DNA of 38,305 nucleotides from Clostridia bacterium (GCA_030618495.1 JAUXDE010000002.1:1-38305), one strand, 5' to 3'; positions 18,064 to 27,426 are shown, counted from the first letter of the stretch. The notes: generated from the letters alone by a model not told the origin. A program made the numbers and translations.

Positions 18064-18165
18064 TTTGGGGAGAATTTGGGGACACGTACCTAATTATTTT
18101 AAAGGCATAACTCGAAAAAAAATAATTAGGTACGTGTCCCCAAATTATTTGTCCCCAAATTATTA
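18061..18165. repeat. Palindromic repeat C: near-copy of repeat B with inverted loop, plus outer half-repeats
   Basis: The core arms at 18072-18100 and 18119-18146 are identical to those of repeat B (28-29 bp, perfectly complementary). The 18-nt loop is the exact reverse complement of repeat B's loop. Extra copies of the motif taatttgggga lie outside each arm (18061-18071, and on the minus strand near 18151-18163). The element fills the whole gap between two convergent genes, with a stop codon at each edge. It could serve as a bidirectional 3'-end hairpin, though T-runs are absent after the stem. Confidence 0.92.
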
Positions 18166-19137
18166 GAACTTGGCGGTAACTGAGAACCTGTGAGTAAACA
18201 AGTCCAGCACGCCGTAAGAAACCCACGCGTAATCAATGGCGAATTTCTCCAGATTAAAACCCGCTCCTACGGACAAACCTGAAAGGAAACCTAAATCGGC
18301 AAGGGTCGTTGTTTTAAATCCCGCCCTCACCGCAAACAACTTGGTGATGTAGTACTCTCCCCCGAAATGCAGGTTAAGCTCGTTATCGGCAGGCATGTTG
18401 ACATCTGCGCCAACGGTAAAATTACTTTCCATATCCTTGTACGCAATACCCACTTTTATGTTAAACGGCAAAGCAGCCTCCACTCCCGTAAAACTATCCG
18501 GTCCGCTGAAACTGTACCCCGCTCCTATGTTCTGGACTACCGCCCCGGCAAGGATTCCCTTGCCAAATTCCACCCCCTCTGATGCAAAGTGAACTCCGGC
18601 ATCAAAAGCAAGGCCTGTTGCCGCGTAACCGCCTCCGGCAATATTTTCAACCCCGATACCCTCATAAATCAATTTAACGCTTGCTCCGACACCGAACATC
18701 CCAAACTTCATGCTGAAAGCGCCGATACCCGCCAAATTGTTCGCTCCAAACAGGTAATCTGCCGTATCGGTATCACCTGTCCTCGCCTCCAGTCCTCCAA
18801 GGGTAACGTAAGACGCCCCCACGCCAAAAGCCATATTCTCGCCAATCGGCATCCCGAAAGCCGCAAAATCATGGTTGATGCCCTGGAACAGCATCATGTA
18901 AGAACCTGTCAACTGCATCCCGCTCATGCGGCACAGTCCCGCAGGGTTCCAGTAAAGGGCATTGATGTCGTCCGCAATACCCGCGAACACCTCCCCCATA
19001 CCAACGGCGCGCGCGCCTACCCCGAGTTTTAAAAACTGGGCGCCCAGCGTCCCCGCATTTACATTTATCTCCGCGCCCACAGGGTTTGCAAGCGCCAGGA
19101 TAAGCCCGGCAATTATTACAATTGTTTTCTTATTCAT
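18163..19137 (-). CDS. PorV/PorQ-family outer-membrane beta-barrel protein
   Basis: A signal peptide (MNKKTIVIIAGLILALANPVGA, cleavage near 22) precedes FLKLGVGARAVGMGEVFAGIADDINALYWNPAGL. This is the hallmark N-terminus of the PorV/PorQ (UPF0164, FadL-like) family. The remainder is Gly- and aromatic-rich alternating strands ending in RFSVTAKF, a typical barrel C-terminus with a terminal Phe. In Bacteroidota PorV shuttles type IX secretion cargo at the outer membrane. Many candidate phyla carry relatives of unknown role. It lies 21 bp after the giant gene, with AGGAGG 9 nt before the ATG, so the two are co-transcribed. A partner role for the giant protein is inference. Confidence 0.85.
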   Translation of the reverse strand: MNKKTIVIIAGLILALANPVGAEINVNAGTLGAQFLKLGVGARAVGMGEVFAGIADDINALYWNPAGLCRMSGMQLTGSYMMLFQGINHDFAAFGMPIGENMAFGVGASYVTLGGLEARTGDTDTADYLFGANNLAGIGAFSMKFGMFGVGASVKLIYEGIGVENIAGGGYAATGLAFDAGVHFASEGVEFGKGILAGAVVQNIGAGYSFSGPDSFTGVEAALPFNIKVGIAYKDMESNFTVGADVNMPADNELNLHFGGEYYITKLFAVRAGFKTTTLADLGFLSGLSVGAGFNLEKFAIDYAWVSYGVLDLFTHRFSVTAKF

Positions 19138-19158
19138 GAGTTCTTACCTCCTATTATA

Positions 19159-22100
19159 CTACTGGCTTCTCAATAATGCAACCTTTTTAATTATTTCCGT
19201 TTCACCCATCTTTATATAACACATATATATTCCGTTAGCCACATAACTACCGCTTTCATTTTTCGCATCCCAGGTCGCCCTGTAAACATAACCGCCGGGC
19301 ACCGCAATTTCACTAAAAGTATCCCTTACGAGTTCTCCTGCAAGGTTATATATCTTTATATCAACACTGACATTGCTTGCCGAACCGGGAGGAATCCTGT
19401 ATTTTATAGTAAGCGGAGTTTCAGTTGTCGGATGGAACGGGTTCGGGTACACCCACATCTTGTAATCTGTGTCGGAATACGCAACAGTCACCTGGTTAGA
19501 AAAACCGCTCATGTTGGGTGTCGTCGCATCATCCACCGCCTTTACCGCAAAGTACGGACCTGTAACAATAGTAACTATATAACTGTGTGTGGGCGCCGTT
19601 ACCGTAGCAAGGAGTGTATAATAACCGCCTTCATCAGGGTTCGATGCCTCCACTGAGGACTGGTGGACTTCATAGTATTTAATATCGCTTGCTTCACTCT
19701 CGTCCCAGTCAAGTTCAACACCACCGCCCCCCGCTATTTTATTCGCGCTTAATTTCGGTTTTGCCGGAGCAGTCTCATCGGCGAATGCCGCGTACTTGGT
19801 GAAGTGCGACACGTCTACCGATATGGTGTTGTTTTCACTATCAATTGTCCTGCTGGCCTTCTCCTTTACCCAGGTAGCGTTGTCCTCATCATAGTAATTG
19901 ATATCTAATTTACTCACGGGTACGGTGCTTGCGCCCATATCATATTCAACAGTAACTTTCGAAGTTTCACCTTCCGCTAACTGCGCCAGGGGTCCCGTAA
20001 CAAGGTATATTTCCATGTTATAAACCGAACTGAGCATTTCACCCGGGGCGCCGCTTGCCTTGACAGCAAGGCTCGGTACGATAAACGAATACGCGCTCAT
20101 GCTCTTCTTCATTACCCCCAGAGCGCCGACCTCATCGGGATCAATACTCGCAATGAATATCTTCAAACCCGTAATATCCTCCACGTCTTCGCCGTCGACC
20201 GTCACCTTCGTTCCCATCGGCAGGTAAAAACCGGATGCATTGCCCTGCCCTATAACAATGTTGCCGCCGGTAACGGGATTAATATATTCTTCGTTCCTTC
20301 CCTTTTCACCGGTGTATATAGTAAATACTTTTGTGGACAGTTGCCCTTTCAGGTCATGCCCTGTTACCTGTATCTTGAATTTGTCTTCGCTGGCGGCGGC
20401 ATACTCTGCGCTGCACTCTCTCCTGTCATCGGATAAAATCCTTCCGCTCAACGTCCCCGCCCCTTCTGTAAGAGTAATGATATCCGAAGCGTTTCTTTCA
20501 GCCAGGGGTTCATTGCTCCACACGTCGATTTCGAATACGTCTCCTGTTTTCCTTTCAGCCTGTACAATGAACTGAGGAGGATTATCGGTATAGATAACGC
20601 CTTTTGTTATCGTATCGGTAGGACTGCCTACCGCGAAACTCACCGTGGCGGTATCAATGAATACATCCGCCTTTCCCTCTCCCACGAGAGCAATATAATA
20701 GTTTATGCCCTCCTCCAGTCCTTCAACGCTGTAACTTTCGATCTCGTTGGTCGTGCTGTTGCTGTTAACCGTACCGAATACAAACCTGCTGAAATCATTT
20801 GTAACCGCCACGACTTCCCGCACATCCGACGTATTTATCTTCTTTCCGTACTTGTCAACAATGGACCCCTGCACCTTCTTTCCCGTTACAAGCTGTATCT
20901 CACCAAGGCCGGTGGCCCCGTTGACTGTAATATCGGCAACATGGGTTTTAAGGCCTTTTGAAAAAACCTTCAAAACGTAATCATTCGCAACAATGCCTTC
21001 AATCAGGAAATCACCGTCATAATCGGTTATCTGCTCTATGCCACCCATGGGGTCATTGTATATCTTGCCCTTCTCCTGCAGGAGCACCATCGCGCCGGGC
21101 ATGTCGTTTCCCATTTCCTCAAAAGGCAATGTCAGCGACTTGCCGCCCGAGGGAGTAATTGTCCCCGATAGGCTGGCGTTCGCCTCGCTGAGAACGAAAT
21201 TAACGTTCTCTGATTTTGCCGTAACGTTACTCCTGGATTTTTCACCGTAGCCGGATATTATACCCTCCGTCCATTCGGGCCTTACCGCGGCATAAACGTC
21301 CCAGTACGTTATATCTTCATTAATACCTTTAATCGTATAATAACCTTTTGTATCGGTCTTCGCCTCCAGACGGACTGTTTCACCGTGATGCGATGCGGGT
21401 TCCGCGGACATCCTGATATTCGCAATCCCCGTACCACCTGAATCTTCAACCTTGCCTGAAATTGTTGAACCTTCCTTTAACTTAATAGTCCCGAGGTCAA
21501 TGTCCTCCGCGTTATCAGGCACGGTAATCCCCGCAATCAGCATGCCGGCGTAGTTTTTGTACTGAGCCGCAAAACCGTACATATCCTCCTTCTGCCCGCT
21601 GACCCTCACGACATAGGTCCCGGCAGGCAGGTTCTCTAACCTGAATTCACCTGTTGTTTCATCTATTTTTCTTTCATTGTCCCACTGCTCGGTATGCCTG
21701 TAACTCCCCTCAACCCAGGGCCTTGCCTCGCAGTTTACGGTCATGCCGTTTATGCCGCTCACCGGCTGTCCTGTCTGGCTGTCAACAAGCCTCCCTTTTA
21801 TGTTTGCGCCTTTACCAAGCAGAATTGGAGCAACCGACACATCGCTGCCCGTAACGGACACTTCTTTTGCCACCTCTTTGTAGTTATTTGACCAGACCCT
21901 TACTATGTATGACCCCGTGCTGACCGGGCCGAGAGTAAAGTATCCTGTCCTGTTGGTCGGCTGAGACGAAAAATCAACCCAGTAACTTGAAATGCTGTCC
22001 TTATTGTACCCCGCGCTGAACAATTCAATATTCATCCCCTCCGAACCTGTCAGGGGCCTATTCACCGAACCCGATATACTGTAACCGTCCGTCAGGTAAA

Positions 22101-25100
22101 GGTCTACATTAGCCGCCTCCCCCGCGTCTACGGTCTTAACTTCCGCCTTGCCCGCCATTTTGCCTGAATCAAGATTAACCGGGGGCCTGACCACGTAAAT
22201 CCCCTTATCAAGTCCGCTGACGCTAAATGTTGCGGAGCTTTCACCGACAGGCGTCAGGGGCGCCATGTAATATGCGTTTGTCATGTCCATCCAGTCCATC
22301 TGTTTAGGCATGACTTCTACGAACTTCCCGGTAAGCTCAGTAACAGCAGTTCGTAATGGTGTAGTTGAAGAACTGATATAAACCGTACCTGAAATCGAAG
22401 CGCTGGTATATAGACTTAGAATTCCCGCATTAAAGTCAGCGTCGTTGGTAACCCCGACCATCTTACTCAGGGTGGCAAAGTTACCGTCCGATATACCCAT
22501 GTAATTTGACGTGCCTGGCGCTACATCATACTGGTTCACGGACAGCATGTATTCCCCGGTCCCCAGATTCTCAATTTTAAACGTTCCGGATGTAGAATAT
22601 ATAGTCGTAAGAGACTCAACCCTCATACCGCCCGTCATACCGCCTGTAACCGAAACCCTAACTTTGGAAGGAACACATTCCTCACCCGTAATAATACCGT
22701 AAACAGAACCGCCAAAGGCCTGCAAGTCTATAACCGCAGTATTAGTTGGAGCGGTTACTATGTAAGGCCTGACGGCCATTTCAAAACCCTCAAGCCATGT
22801 ATCAATGTAGTATTGGGCTCCATTAATTAATCCGCTTATTGTCCAGGTACTTACAGGTAAAGTTATGCTGGTTCCCGCACCATGATTTTCCCCGGGTGAC
22901 CATGCATTTATCCATAATGAACTTCCCGGCGTTCCTCCGTTTATCCCTCCTGAAATAGTGCCACCTTCCGAGAATGCATAGGTCCCGAGCGTCACGTCAG
23001 TCGTCCCGATATCAACGTCATAATTCTGTTCCGCGTAACCGTCGGCGTGCAGGTTAAGCTCATAGGTGGTGCCCGGAGGGACATCGTGTATCATAAAGGA
23101 TGCCGTGTTAGTTGAAGCATATATCTCTGTGCCGCTATACGCATACTTCATGTCGGCATCGTTCTTTAAATTAATATTAACGTACACGTTGTTGCCCACA
23201 TCCTCTACGGGTATCTGCACGGTGCCGCTTACAATAACGTTCCTATCAGTTCCTCCAATGGTAAAGTCCTTTGTTGCGCCGTAGGAAGTAATCTCCACGT
23301 TCTGCGCAACCTGGAGCGAGTATCCGAACAATTCGACCTCAACCCTGTAGAATCCGGGCGGCAGAGATATTTTATACGTTTTTAAACTCTGGCCGCTCAC
23401 TATCTGGAAGTTCGTAAACCCATAATTTCCCGTTGTCTCATCCCAGGCGTTGACGTGCCCCCACAACTCGTTGACAGAATTACCCCACTGGTCAGTATAA
23501 GCTGTAAACGGCGCCGGCAGGGTAATGGTTCCCGTGAGTTCCCCACCCTTGTTAAGGATAATATCAGGAACCTGTTTCGTGGTTTCGGCCGCGCCGTAAA
23601 ACACTCCCGGTTCATCATGAGGCTCGTACCCGTCTTTTTCCACGTGAATATAATAATTCCTGTCCTTGGGAACGCCGCTTATAAAATATTTTCCGCTGGA
23701 ATCCGTGTACGCCTCCCCAAAATAATCGTGCGTCCCCGCCTCAACCCTGGCGGTTCCGACAGGCGAGGTGGTACTGCCAACCATCTGGTATATCCATCCG
23801 TAGAGTCCCGGGATATTGCTGTCTATTGTTACGGTTAAATCAGTGTTGGATTCTCCCAGGTAAGCGTTATCCCAGTACGATGAATGACATATTTGGATCT
23901 TAACATCATAGTCACCCGAAGGAAGCACATTCCAGGAATTATCCCTCCCCTCCCACATAATATCAATATACTTCGTGCCGGTCGGTTCGTATCCTATCCA
24001 CCAGTCTGTAAACCAGTCCTTCTGAGCCACTATTGCATCCAGTTCCTCGTAGGTAAGTTTCTGGACGGGCGTCCCGTACCACGGATTGCCCATATTGTCC
24101 CAGGTAACATCATCCCAGTTAAACACCTCAAAAGCACTGTCCCTGTTGGTATCAATGACAACCCTTACAATGGCTCCCGAAAAGTCCGCTGAAGTGGGTA
24201 TATCATTCATCGTGAAACTAATATTGGCAAAGTCCTTAATGTTATCACCGTCGGGCGTTATTGTAACCGTCGTGGATGAGGTGTCGATTCCGTTGTAAAC
24301 CGTAACATCGGTCCCCAGCGTCAGTGTGCCCGAAGTTTGGCTCATAAGAAAATCATCTATAACATACTGAACGGCTGTTGAGAAATATATATTGTAATTG
24401 GGCATGTTCACAATATAGCCGTCCTTCTTCACCTTGACAAAGTAGGGATAGGACTCTGACTGGGGGTAAATCCCGTGAATCTCGAAGTTGTAACCGGGCC
24501 CCAGGTCGGTACCGGATGAAACCGTTGAAGTACTGAAAGTATGGTCAGCCGTATCCCAGCTGTTATTCGAATCCCAGAGTTCCACCGTAACCCCGCCCAT
24601 AGGGATACCCGGAGAGGCAGAGTCCTCCACCTTGCCTCTTAACGTACTTGGGTCAGTCACCACGGGGTCAGAGACGCCGAAGTACACGTAATCCATGTTG
24701 TTCCCGGACAGGTTAATTTCACACGCGCCTTCCATCCCGTCTCCTCCGGCGCCGCACTTATAGACGCCGTAGGGTTCCCACGGGTCTCTTTCATCGTTGC
24801 TGTTATTGTCAATGAAAGCGCCGAGGTAATAGATACCGTCCACCAACCCGTTTATCATGTAAGTGCCTGAGTACATACCTGTTGACACATACAATGTGCT
24901 GTCAGTGCCGCCTTCCACATATGCCTCCGCAAAAGACGGGTCGGAGAATACCCCGATTTTTACATCGTACGTCGGCGTTGCAGATGAAGGAGTTTTGTTG
25001 TAATAAACAGTGCCGGATATTGACCTGTTACCCGTTGGGTCATCAAGTGTCACGTCAATGCCGTACATCTCCCCCTGAACGTATATGGAGGTGTAATCAT

Positions 25101-27351
25101 CGCTGTTCTCAAAGAACCTGCCCATAGGCTCGCCGTCATCAAGAATATAGTTGTTGTTGGTATCCATATAGGTAACAACATAGTAGTTTTCCCCGGTTTC
25201 GGTAGGTCCAAGCCAAACGTTGTCTATCGTGTATCCTCCCACGGCATGTATCATCGTAGACGATTCGGGATCTCCCGCGGGGTTGCCGTTGGCATCCAGG
25301 TTCAGGAAGGCTCCAACGTAAATATCTCCGCTGAATTGCGTACCGCTGTAATAAATGGTACCGTTTATCTTTCCGTAGCCTCCCGCGCCGCCCGCGTAAA
25401 TATTCACGCCAGCCTCGGCCGAATTGCTCGTTGTAAGCCCGTCCGTTTCTGCGATAACCATCGCGTATCCCGTTGTGTTCTTTGAAAGCAGTTCTATGGT
25501 AGCTATACCGGCAACAGTGGCCACAGGATTTGTTAGATTAATAAACTCCGCGCACTCGTTGAATAGAACAAGCCCCTGTTCCCCCATAATCAGTTCCACG
25601 TTCACGTAATCAACATTCATACTAACAGAAGGGTTATCGATACTGAACAGCACCTTCAATATCTCCCCGGGAACAAGGTAATCCCCGAGAGTCCCCGGAA
25701 AGAATTCAAAATTATAGGTTGTCGGTGACATGTCAAACATATTGTTGCTAACGGTTTCCCAGTTACCAAGGGACTCTTTCCATACGCTGACTGTGAAAGG
25801 CGCCGACGATATAGCCACCCATGCCGTTATGGAAATTTTCACGCTGTCCACGCTATTAAGATCTATCGGTTCATAATCAAGATCAAAATCTGTCATGAAG
25901 AACGCATAGTCGCCCACTCCGGCGAAGACTTCAAAATCCTGACTGTCATTAATCTGTTCAATCAGCATGGTTCCGGCGGGGTTAGAAAGCATGACATTAA
26001 TCTCATTCGGAGGAGGCAGCGGAGGATTGATATTAATACCTGGCGAGTGAAACGCTTCATTATTCCCGTACTTGAAATCAAATATCATGCCGCTCTCGGT
26101 GAGCACTTCTATGCCTGTATAGTCAATCTTTATGGGACGGCCTTGCTCGTCCGCTTCAAACACTACGTCAATGGTTCCTCCGGTTAAATAATTTGAGATA
26201 TTTGTGTTAAGTTCAACTTCATAATCACCGAATTCATAGTTAATATATATCGGACTGCCTATAACATCATAAGTACCCCCGTTCCATGCATATACGTTTA
26301 CCTTTAAATCACTCACGTTATCGGTGGCGGCCCTTATGAATATTCTTATCTTCATTATATCGGGAACGTTTTCCGCAATGTTGTTATACTGCGCCCTGAA
26401 CGCGGAATACATGGCCGGAGTCCAGCCTGTATCCCACTGGTAGCCGTCAACTTCCATTATATCGCCGGTCGGTACATTATTATTGATTTCACCTTGAGCT
26501 ATGGGCGGTATGTTCGATAATGACATCGTGTAATACGCCCAGTGGCCCGTATCCATGAAATCGTAGACGTTCCCGAACTCACCACCTTCCCCGCCGCTTT
26601 CGGAGACCGACAGTTCAACGTAGTTCACCTTCAGCCCGTAACCCGGGTTCTCCATCACGTACAGTAATTCCATCCTTTCATCACCGTCATGGTACCAGAT
26701 ATAATCGGCAAAGTTAGCAAGGTTCACAGCATCCTTGGTGAATGACTGCTCCTCGTAACCGAGAAGCATGTTATCGGGTGTTATTTCGTCCCATGCGCCT
26801 GACTTATTATATGCATAAATTATCAACCTGCAGTTACCCTCGGGACACTTGCCCGCGAACTTCGCCTGTATGCTGACTATATTGGATACATTCTCCTCAA
26901 TCACAAAACTCGCCTGGAAGGCGGAGTAATATCCTGACATTTTATAAATATCCAGCATCATGGCATCGTCCATTTTTACCTTATCAACCTCAACAGGCGG
27001 AACTTCAAAGGTCACCATATCGACAAACGTCGGGGGGATAGAGTCCAGTTGGTTATCAGAATACGCCATGTGCATGAGGGCGTCATTGAAGTTATAAACA
27101 TGCGGCCCGCCGCCCGGGCCTGAAGTACCGAGACTGAAGTAAACATCCTTTGTAGCAGTTATATCAACCTGGCCACCCGCATCATAGATGGTTGCTGTAA
27201 TTAATGAAGTACTCATGCCGTCAGCCAGTATGCCCGTAGGGCTTGACTGAATGACTATATAATCATTGGCGCTTACCCTGCCCGCACAAAAAAATAAGAC
27301 AACGGTAAGAAGAAAATAAAATAATATGCCCTTAAATTTCATATCTTTCAT
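19159..27351 (-). CDS. Giant secreted multidomain protein: split Ig-like domain, many carboxypeptidase-regulatory-like repeats, Por-secretion-like tail
   Basis: The product has 2730 residues. In order it shows: a signal peptide (about 1-29); the first half of a Big_1/invasin-like domain (about 33-80); three tandem homologous modules (about 84-258, 262-418, 422-592); the second half of the Ig-like domain (about 605-660); a long series of beta-sandwich repeats of carboxypeptidase-regulatory type, each with an ISGTV-like opening and a G-x-Y-x-(V/I)-x-G-(L/V) close (about 665-2250); an internal FlgD/CHU_C-like unit starting TITPDGDN (about 1030-1145); a region with SVDVSHFTKYAAFA near 2515; a fibronectin III-like domain (about 2524-2623); and a C-terminal sorting-like tail starting VYPNPF (about 2630-2730) with WDAKNESGSYVANGIY. 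It has no recognised enzyme domain. It is probably an extracellular or surface adhesin or structural protein. GGGAGG precedes the ATG. Confidence 0.8.
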   Translation of the reverse strand: MKDMKFKGILFYFLLTVVLFFCAGRVSANDYIVIQSSPTGILADGMSTSLITATIYDAGGQVDITATKDVYFSLGTSGPGGGPHVYNFNDALMHMAYSDNQLDSIPPTFVDMVTFEVPPVEVDKVKMDDAMMLDIYKMSGYYSAFQASFVIEENVSNIVSIQAKFAGKCPEGNCRLIIYAYNKSGAWDEITPDNMLLGYEEQSFTKDAVNLANFADYIWYHDGDERMELLYVMENPGYGLKVNYVELSVSESGGEGGEFGNVYDFMDTGHWAYYTMSLSNIPPIAQGEINNNVPTGDIMEVDGYQWDTGWTPAMYSAFRAQYNNIAENVPDIMKIRIFIRAATDNVSDLKVNVYAWNGGTYDVIGSPIYINYEFGDYEVELNTNISNYLTGGTIDVVFEADEQGRPIKIDYTGIEVLTESGMIFDFKYGNNEAFHSPGININPPLPPPNEINVMLSNPAGTMLIEQINDSQDFEVFAGVGDYAFFMTDFDLDYEPIDLNSVDSVKISITAWVAISSAPFTVSVWKESLGNWETVSNNMFDMSPTTYNFEFFPGTLGDYLVPGEILKVLFSIDNPSVSMNVDYVNVELIMGEQGLVLFNECAEFINLTNPVATVAGIATIELLSKNTTGYAMVIAETDGLTTSNSAEAGVNIYAGGAGGYGKINGTIYYSGTQFSGDIYVGAFLNLDANGNPAGDPESSTMIHAVGGYTIDNVWLGPTETGENYYVVTYMDTNNNYILDDGEPMGRFFENSDDYTSIYVQGEMYGIDVTLDDPTGNRSISGTVYYNKTPSSATPTYDVKIGVFSDPSFAEAYVEGGTDSTLYVSTGMYSGTYMINGLVDGIYYLGAFIDNNSNDERDPWEPYGVYKCGAGGDGMEGACEINLSGNNMDYVYFGVSDPVVTDPSTLRGKVEDSASPGIPMGGVTVELWDSNNSWDTADHTFSTSTVSSGTDLGPGYNFEIHGIYPQSESYPYFVKVKKDGYIVNMPNYNIYFSTAVQYVIDDFLMSQTSGTLTLGTDVTVYNGIDTSSTTVTITPDGDNIKDFANISFTMNDIPTSADFSGAIVRVVIDTNRDSAFEVFNWDDVTWDNMGNPWYGTPVQKLTYEELDAIVAQKDWFTDWWIGYEPTGTKYIDIMWEGRDNSWNVLPSGDYDVKIQICHSSYWDNAYLGESNTDLTVTIDSNIPGLYGWIYQMVGSTTSPVGTARVEAGTHDYFGEAYTDSSGKYFISGVPKDRNYYIHVEKDGYEPHDEPGVFYGAAETTKQVPDIILNKGGELTGTITLPAPFTAYTDQWGNSVNELWGHVNAWDETTGNYGFTNFQIVSGQSLKTYKISLPPGFYRVEVELFGYSLQVAQNVEITSYGATKDFTIGGTDRNVIVSGTVQIPVEDVGNNVYVNINLKNDADMKYAYSGTEIYASTNTASFMIHDVPPGTTYELNLHADGYAEQNYDVDIGTTDVTLGTYAFSEGGTISGGINGGTPGSSLWINAWSPGENHGAGTSITLPVSTWTISGLINGAQYYIDTWLEGFEMAVRPYIVTAPTNTAVIDLQAFGGSVYGIITGEECVPSKVRVSVTGGMTGGMRVESLTTIYSTSGTFKIENLGTGEYMLSVNQYDVAPGTSNYMGISDGNFATLSKMVGVTNDADFNAGILSLYTSASISGTVYISSSTTPLRTAVTELTGKFVEVMPKQMDWMDMTNAYYMAPLTPVGESSATFSVSGLDKGIYVVRPPVNLDSGKMAGKAEVKTVDAGEAANVDLYLTDGYSISGSVNRPLTGSEGMNIELFSAGYNKDSISSYWVDFSSQPTNRTGYFTLGPVSTGSYIVRVWSNNYKEVAKEVSVTGSDVSVAPILLGKGANIKGRLVDSQTGQPVSGINGMTVNCEARPWVEGSYRHTEQWDNERKIDETTGEFRLENLPAGTYVVRVSGQKEDMYGFAAQYKNYAGMLIAGITVPDNAEDIDLGTIKLKEGSTISGKVEDSGGTGIANIRMSAEPASHHGETVRLEAKTDTKGYYTIKGINEDITYWDVYAAVRPEWTEGIISGYGEKSRSNVTAKSENVNFVLSEANASLSGTITPSGGKSLTLPFEEMGNDMPGAMVLLQEKGKIYNDPMGGIEQITDYDGDFLIEGIVANDYVLKVFSKGLKTHVADITVNGATGLGEIQLVTGKKVQGSIVDKYGKKINTSDVREVVAVTNDFSRFVFGTVNSNSTTNEIESYSVEGLEEGINYYIALVGEGKADVFIDTATVSFAVGSPTDTITKGVIYTDNPPQFIVQAERKTGDVFEIDVWSNEPLAERNASDIITLTEGAGTLSGRILSDDRRECSAEYAAASEDKFKIQVTGHDLKGQLSTKVFTIYTGEKGRNEEYINPVTGGNIVIGQGNASGFYLPMGTKVTVDGEDVEDITGLKIFIASIDPDEVGALGVMKKSMSAYSFIVPSLAVKASGAPGEMLSSVYNMEIYLVTGPLAQLAEGETSKVTVEYDMGASTVPVSKLDINYYDEDNATWVKEKASRTIDSENNTISVDVSHFTKYAAFADETAPAKPKLSANKIAGGGGVELDWDESEASDIKYYEVHQSSVEASNPDEGGYYTLLATVTAPTHSYIVTIVTGPYFAVKAVDDATTPNMSGFSNQVTVAYSDTDYKMWVYPNPFHPTTETPLTIKYRIPPGSASNVSVDIKIYNLAGELVRDTFSEIAVPGGYVYRATWDAKNESGSYVANGIYMCYIKMGETEIIKKVALLRSQ

Positions 27352-27397: not shown

Positions 27398-27426
27398 AGT
27401 ATACCCTATCATCTATATATTGTCAA
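27398..27426 (-). promoter_or_regulatory. Near-consensus sigma-70-type promoter of the giant gene
   Basis: The minus strand has TTGACA (27426-27421, perfect), a 17-nt spacer and TATACT (27403-27398). Transcription should begin near 27390, giving a leader of about 40 nt that ends in GGGAGGCAAGTT before the ATG at 27351. This is the best -35/-10 pair seen in the window and suggests strong expression of the giant protein and the PorV-like barrel. The remaining part of the 244-bp divergent gap is AT-rich with no further feature recognised. Confidence 0.7.

Follow-up and report, generated by a model that had tools for sequence, protein, structure and literature searches.

A giant protein with a type IX-like sorting tail and its adjoining PorV-family barrel as a candidate cargo-carrier pair outside Bacteroidota

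A 38,305-nucleotide stretch of a genome recorded as Clostridia bacterium (GCA_030618495.1, JAUXDE010000002.1:1-38305; hereafter the window) encodes a giant protein whose tail resembles a type IX sorting domain, followed by a gene for an outer-membrane barrel of the PorV family. The question raised by this locus is whether the two form an export pair. Published accounts have confined type IX secretion to Bacteroidota or the wider FCB (Fibrobacteres-Chlorobi-Bacteroidetes) group (PMC4793230, PMC7463736, PMC11205867). In Flavobacterium, the C-terminal domain (CTD) of a Type A cargo binds the loops of PorV within SprA and leaves sideways together with PorV (PMC10994853). A single PorV serves all Type A cargos there, and Type B cargos use cognate, gene-linked PorP/SprF carriers (PMC12618676). 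With a probability of roughly 0.7, we read the window pair as a cargo and its dedicated PorV-family carrier in a type IX-like, SprA-dependent export pathway.

The cargo gene (positions 19159-27351, minus strand) is an open reading frame of 2730 residues that combines a signal peptide, beta-sandwich repeats and a sorting-type C-terminus. The putative Sec signal peptide, MKDMKFKGILFYFLLTVVLFFCAGRVSA (27268-27351, minus strand), was recognized by eye, with a presumed cleavage site, and the repeats are carboxypeptidase-regulatory-like (Pfam CarboxypepD_reg, 2e-25, five stretches). A gap of 21 bp containing an AGGAGG ribosome-binding site (19138-19158, minus strand) separates the giant from the barrel gene (18163-19137, 324 residues), which lies downstream on the same minus strand. 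In a genome of the same genus (G001), the giant has an orthologue of 2766 residues with 71% identity across the full length; the orthologous barrel gene follows 20 bp after it, and the upstream neighbours are the same as in the window genome.

The CTD of the giant, assigned by sequence models and fold, covers residues 2633-2730 (19162-19455, minus strand) and runs from WVYPNPF through TWDAKNESGSYVANGIY to KKVALLRSQ, as in the preliminary description of this locus. Searched as a whole, the giant scores 33.9 bits against TIGR04183 (cut-off 23), which bears out the sorting-like tail claimed there for a 2730-residue protein. That description had also staked its case on sorting models fitting the tail better than FlgD_ig, and here the outcome is divided. 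Pfam goes the other way, with FlgD_ig at 34.1 (over its cut-off of 27) and Por_Secre_tail at 21.0 (under its cut-off of 27). The NCBIfam models side with the claim: the isolated tail reaches 38.8 for the PorZ CTD, 31.3 for the PorU CTD and 26.0 for TIGR04183 (cut-off 23), against 19.5 at most for FlgD models. These FlgD models align with the C-terminal Ig stretch only and score no more than about 20 bits where the equivalog cut-offs are at least 230, and no whole-protein FlgD match was obtained. TIGR04131 is absent among the NCBIfam matches of the window tail, which by this measure is not of Type B.

Structure comparison likewise favors a type IX CTD. The AlphaFold model of the tail (predicted local distance difference test score, pLDDT, 85.7) retrieved PorZ first and PorU second in Foldseek (E 9e-4 and 3e-3). 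In VIA-align, the tail aligned with the PorU CTD (residues 1061-1158, Z 11.6), the PorZ CTD (residues 693-776, Z 9.6) and the CTD of NucA in its complex with SprA and PorV (Z 8.6). Other Ig-like domains reach Z values of 8-10, so that the fold alone is not exclusive, and the absence of a FlgD structure among the VIA-align matches listed excludes nothing.

The PorV/PorQ-like barrel that the preliminary description placed 21 bp beyond the giant is confirmed by its score of 161.8 bits against the PorV_fam subfamily model NF033709 (cut-off 90). It also passes the Pfam PorV model (28.9, cut-off 27), and its only sequence match in the PDB is PorV of the Flavobacterium johnsoniae translocon (6h3i_F, E 5e-11). 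The AlphaFold model shows 14 strands (pLDDT 80.6), and Foldseek places PorV of the type IX secretion system on top (8gl6_F and 6h3i_F, E about 3e-13), with FadL and TodX behind. The window barrel carries no C-terminal extension, neither TPR nor OmpA. Elsewhere in the phylum, TPR domains were found in 29 of the 65 scanned barrels and an OmpA domain in one examined barrel. Barrels of the PorV/PorP type with a C-terminal TPR, or with FlgD_ig, CHU_C and OmpA domains, are encoded at L094:906-2897, L125:14374-16902 and L046:1292-3619.

A translocon is encoded on another contig of the window genome. The SprA/Sov homologue (L052:1701-6980, 1759 residues) matches TIGR04189 with an E-value of 7.8e-51 and passes PF14349 (28.5 against 27), so the search for SprA/Sov proposed in the preliminary description was rewarded. 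A profile built from five SprA orthologues found SprA of F. johnsoniae (6h3i, E 2.3e-19) in four colinear segments. All six genomes sampled from the phylum, including the window genome, contain SprA matches; that of G001 (76% complete) reaches only E 7e-4 and probably belongs to another protein. A further SprA hit, on contig C68, was dropped as a different protein adjoining a BamA gene, and a single-sequence scan of the genome contigs with the SprA homologue gave no matches.

The alignment search with SprA returned only three relatives, all of the same phylum and recorded as 'Clostridia bacterium' or 'bacterium' metagenome-assembled genomes. Genes for outer-membrane machinery in these genomes lead us to regard the labels as wrong. 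As the window genome belongs to a phylum represented by only these six genomes, it is not one of the Bacteroidota, and the idea that a type IX-type tail and a PorV-type carrier occur outside that phylum gains support. Among the relatives, G003 comes from marine sediment (PMC8319310) and G004, by its CSMAG name, probably from cold seeps (PMC10491686).

Mapping of TIGR04183 and PorV_fam matches across the six genomes showed that pairing of tail and barrel is the rule in the phylum and not an oddity. A same-strand PorV match lies within 800 bp downstream of 61 of 93 tail matches, where chance would give 0.45, and none lies on the opposite strand. When neighbouring genes were counted for the 86 tails with E-values of at most 0.01, 69 were paired with a same-strand PorV-family gene, which lies downstream in 57 cases and upstream in 12. 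The downstream pairs are separated by a median of 14 bp, and 13 of them overlap or abut. Altogether, 60-72 loci in the six genomes show the association, as the preliminary description had expected of related genomes; together with the conservation of the window pair in G001, this recurrence means that the pair is not a chance arrangement. The tails themselves end in lysine or arginine in 80 of 86 cases. Among the unpaired tails, several lie at contig ends and others have no adjoining barrel gene. Three weak matches belong to CarboxypepD-type or NHL-repeat proteins and are not to be taken for tails. Two of these, with E-values above 0.01, fall outside the 86, and the third (contig C148 of G004, E 0.0015, unpaired) is still among them. 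Type B-like tails also occur in the phylum, with 17 of 18 other tails matching TIGR04131, and some barrels match PorP/SprF.

The distances among tails and among barrels are correlated, with r 0.83 over 66 pairs and r 0.46 over 31 non-redundant pairs, and neither value was reached in any of 5000 permutations. Inside single genomes, r ranges from 0.68 to 0.80. This co-divergence suggests that each tail may be recognized by its cognate barrel. Outside the phylum the pattern is different. Six SprA-bearing genomes of other phyla contain 10-130 tails against 5-16 PorV-like matches each, and a PorV gene lies directly downstream of 0 of their best-scoring 150 tails (Fisher p about 2e-32 compared with the phylum). 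In another genome from a different phylum (G023, 93% completeness), 14 PorV-family matches and 3 tails were found together with no SprA match; PorV-like barrels without a translocon may therefore also exist.

An ordinary type IX system might look similar if GldKLMN and PorU were too diverged to be recognized or absent from incomplete assemblies, and if the extra PorV proteins were redundant copies open to any cargo. This explanation can point to the presence of SprA, PorV and CTDs and to the searches for motor and PorU, which were made on fragmented assemblies without a type IX-positive control genome. Under these conditions GldM gave no match in the six genomes and GldL none over its cut-off; PF01364 (C25, the catalytic domain of PorU) had no match in the window genome and none in the controls either. 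One-to-one adjacency and co-divergence, however, are unexpected for interchangeable carriers, and in the SprA-bearing genomes of other phyla tails outnumber PorV-like matches by as much as 12 times, with none of the listed tails adjacent to a PorV gene. Together with the lack of a GldM match in all six genomes, this leaves the ordinary system an unlikely explanation.

Even less probable, in our judgment, is a tail that is only a structural Ig domain of the FlgD type next to a porin like FadL with an unrelated function, the two set side by side by a habit of the lineage that has no role in secretion. The Pfam ranking of the tail speaks for it, as do a weak Toluene_X match in the window barrel and the place of FadL-type folds next after PorV in the structure list. 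Against this stand the NCBIfam scores, the lead of the PorU and PorZ CTDs in both structure comparisons and of PorV in the barrel search, the SprA homologue in the same genome, and the 69 paired tails, which share the strand of their barrel without exception. It is no more credible that a PorV-family barrel exports its own cargo in the manner of two-partner secretion, with SprA kept for another purpose: although tight operons with one barrel per cargo recall such systems and TPR or OmpA domains on about half of the barrels could make these self-sufficient, the 14-strand PorV/FadL barrels in solved SprA-PorV-CTD complexes are carriers and not protein channels (PMC10994853), the phylum has conserved SprA, and three genomes have a PorV-tail pair close to the SprA gene.

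Several observations also weigh against our own interpretation of the window pair as cargo and dedicated carrier. The SprA homologue scores 172.6 bits, under the NCBIfam equivalog cut-off of 200, and the window barrel stays far under the equivalog cut-offs of both PorV (74.9 against 250) and PorQ. Pfam prefers FlgD_ig to Por_Secre_tail, and with GldL, GldM and C25 not found, neither an energy source nor an attachment enzyme of a known kind was identified. Within the window, no motor gene adjoins the pair. Since 5 of 14 tails in the window genome are unpaired, a carrier acting in trans must serve at least some cargos. Co-divergence can also result from nothing more than the joint inheritance of linked genes, and the comparison with other phyla covers only the best-scoring 150 tails, so that weaker paired tails could be hidden. 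Because motor, ring and sortase are unconfirmed, we do not class the window pair as part of a canonical type IX system.

If the window pair does act as cargo and dedicated carrier, the giant would pass the inner membrane by the Sec pathway, and its Ig-like CTD would enter the SprA-like outer-membrane translocon. There its own PorV-family barrel, docked at the lateral opening of SprA, would be bound by way of the barrel's extracellular loops, and the PorV-cargo complex would exit sideways into the outer membrane. The cargo would probably stay on its barrel as a surface anchor, like Type B cargos on PorP/SprF in Bacteroidota, where PorP-like proteins act as anchors (PMC9143113). We favor the barrel as a lasting anchor because the search for a PorU sortase gave no match and almost all cargos have a barrel of their own; the TPR and OmpA extensions on other barrels of the phylum are consistent with anchoring. 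By analogy with Type B, the simplest reading for the phylum appears to be that dedicated carriers are used for Type A tails too.

That GldLM was not found raises the question of how the system is powered, and the neighbourhoods of other cargo-carrier pairs offer a candidate. In L036 (contig C88 of the window genome), the cargo and PorV genes are followed in order by those for a FliF-FliG fusion, MotA, MotB and another MotB, and then by those for a histidine kinase, response regulators and PilZ. The FliF_C-FliG_M-FliG_C fusion, MotA and MotB lie directly downstream of the pair (L036:11277-14500, minus strand), and the second MotB follows the first (L036:10581-11267). The fusion, 553 residues long, joins the C-terminal domain of FliF to the middle and C domains of FliG, and its hydropathy suggests a signal peptide, a periplasmic FliF part, one transmembrane helix and a cytoplasmic FliG part. 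The genes after the motor encode the sensor kinase, two response regulators and a PilZ protein (L036:7040-10564), which suggest signal control of the motor or of secretion. L125:10085-16902 has a gene order like this set.

At L152:1391-10170 (contig C55 of G003), the fusion is accompanied by MotA and one MotB, in the order giant cargo of more than 3367 residues, PorV-type barrel, TPR protein, FliF-FliG-TPR fusion, 1121-residue coiled-coil protein, MotA and MotB. L153 and L072 (contig C82 of G004) repeat this order up to the contig end, and further FliF-FliG copies, some cut by contig ends, follow barrel genes at L046, L078, L104 and L153. Downstream of a 3110-residue cargo and a 1344-residue barrel gene in G002 (contig C58, L151:11809-14333), ExbB-ExbD-ExbD-TonB occupy the place that FliF-FliG and MotAB take in other genomes. 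Related ExbB, ExbD and TonB genes occur at L156:3-2307 (contig C92 of G005).

No flagellar genes are found among the open reading frames of the window. Queries with FliE, FliF, FliH, FliI, FliM, FliN, FliP, FliQ, FliR, FlhA and FlhB of Escherichia coli gave no match across 789 kb, or about 47%, of the window genome and 646 kb of its relatives, and FliG matched only the FliF-FliG fusions in the same sequence. Tentatively, and at somewhat worse than even odds, we propose a hybrid machine in which export through SprA, with a private carrier for each cargo, draws its power from a minimal flagellar-type rotor driven by MotA/MotB stators, or from ExbB/ExbD/TonB, and not from GldLM; the genes for this motor would be those in the cargo-carrier operons. 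The motor would perhaps be coupled to the carriers via periplasmic TPR or OmpA domains, and the machine might also move surface adhesins in gliding. If FliF-FliG and MotAB are indeed the engine, the flagellar motor and type IX secretion would be connected.

Co-transcription of the giant and barrel genes is likely from their arrangement. A promoter-like sigma-70-type site, TTGACA-17-TATACT (11/12), lies upstream of the giant (27398-27426, minus strand; consensus scan), although the 22 such sites in the region against 16.8 expected make this weak promoter evidence. Between the convergent PorV and DUF2148 genes, an inverted repeat of GGGGACACGTACCTAATTATTTT and its complement (18078-18141) is possibly a bidirectional terminator or a mobile repeat.

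We found no earlier report of PorV paralogues, of FliG/MotA with type IX secretion, or of the system in other phyla, in a literature that covered subscription papers and preprints barely at all. The dozens of natural tail-carrier pairs are material for reading the recognition code, and they suggest that cognate carriers are able to handle tails of both Type A and Type B.

Among known structures, the window tail shares with the Ig-like domain of FlgD, the flagellar hook cap, a similar beta-sandwich, the WDGxN...GxYxY motif and a FlgD_ig score over the cut-off. Unlike FlgD, it is the last domain of a 2730-residue protein with a putative signal peptide and an adjoining PorV gene, and type IX CTDs match it better by NCBIfam and by fold. 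The Type A systems of Bacteroidota (SprA/Sov, PorV, TIGR04183 CTD) correspond in the SprA-family homologue, the PorV-fold carrier and the Ig-like CTD on a large cargo. They differ in that the phylum described here lies outside Bacteroidota, has a separate PorV-family barrel next to almost all Type A cargos and not a single PorV for all of them, has many barrels fused to TPR or OmpA, and yielded neither GldL/GldM nor the PorU catalytic domain in searches made without a positive control. Type B of F. johnsoniae (for example SprB-SprF, with PorP/SprF carriers) resembles the phylum in the adjoining cargo and carrier genes, with one carrier each, and in the TIGR04131 tails and PorP/SprF barrels that some members have. 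In contrast to Type B, the phylum extends this pairing to tails of Type A with barrels of the PorV family, and most of its pairs, the one in the window included, are of this sort.

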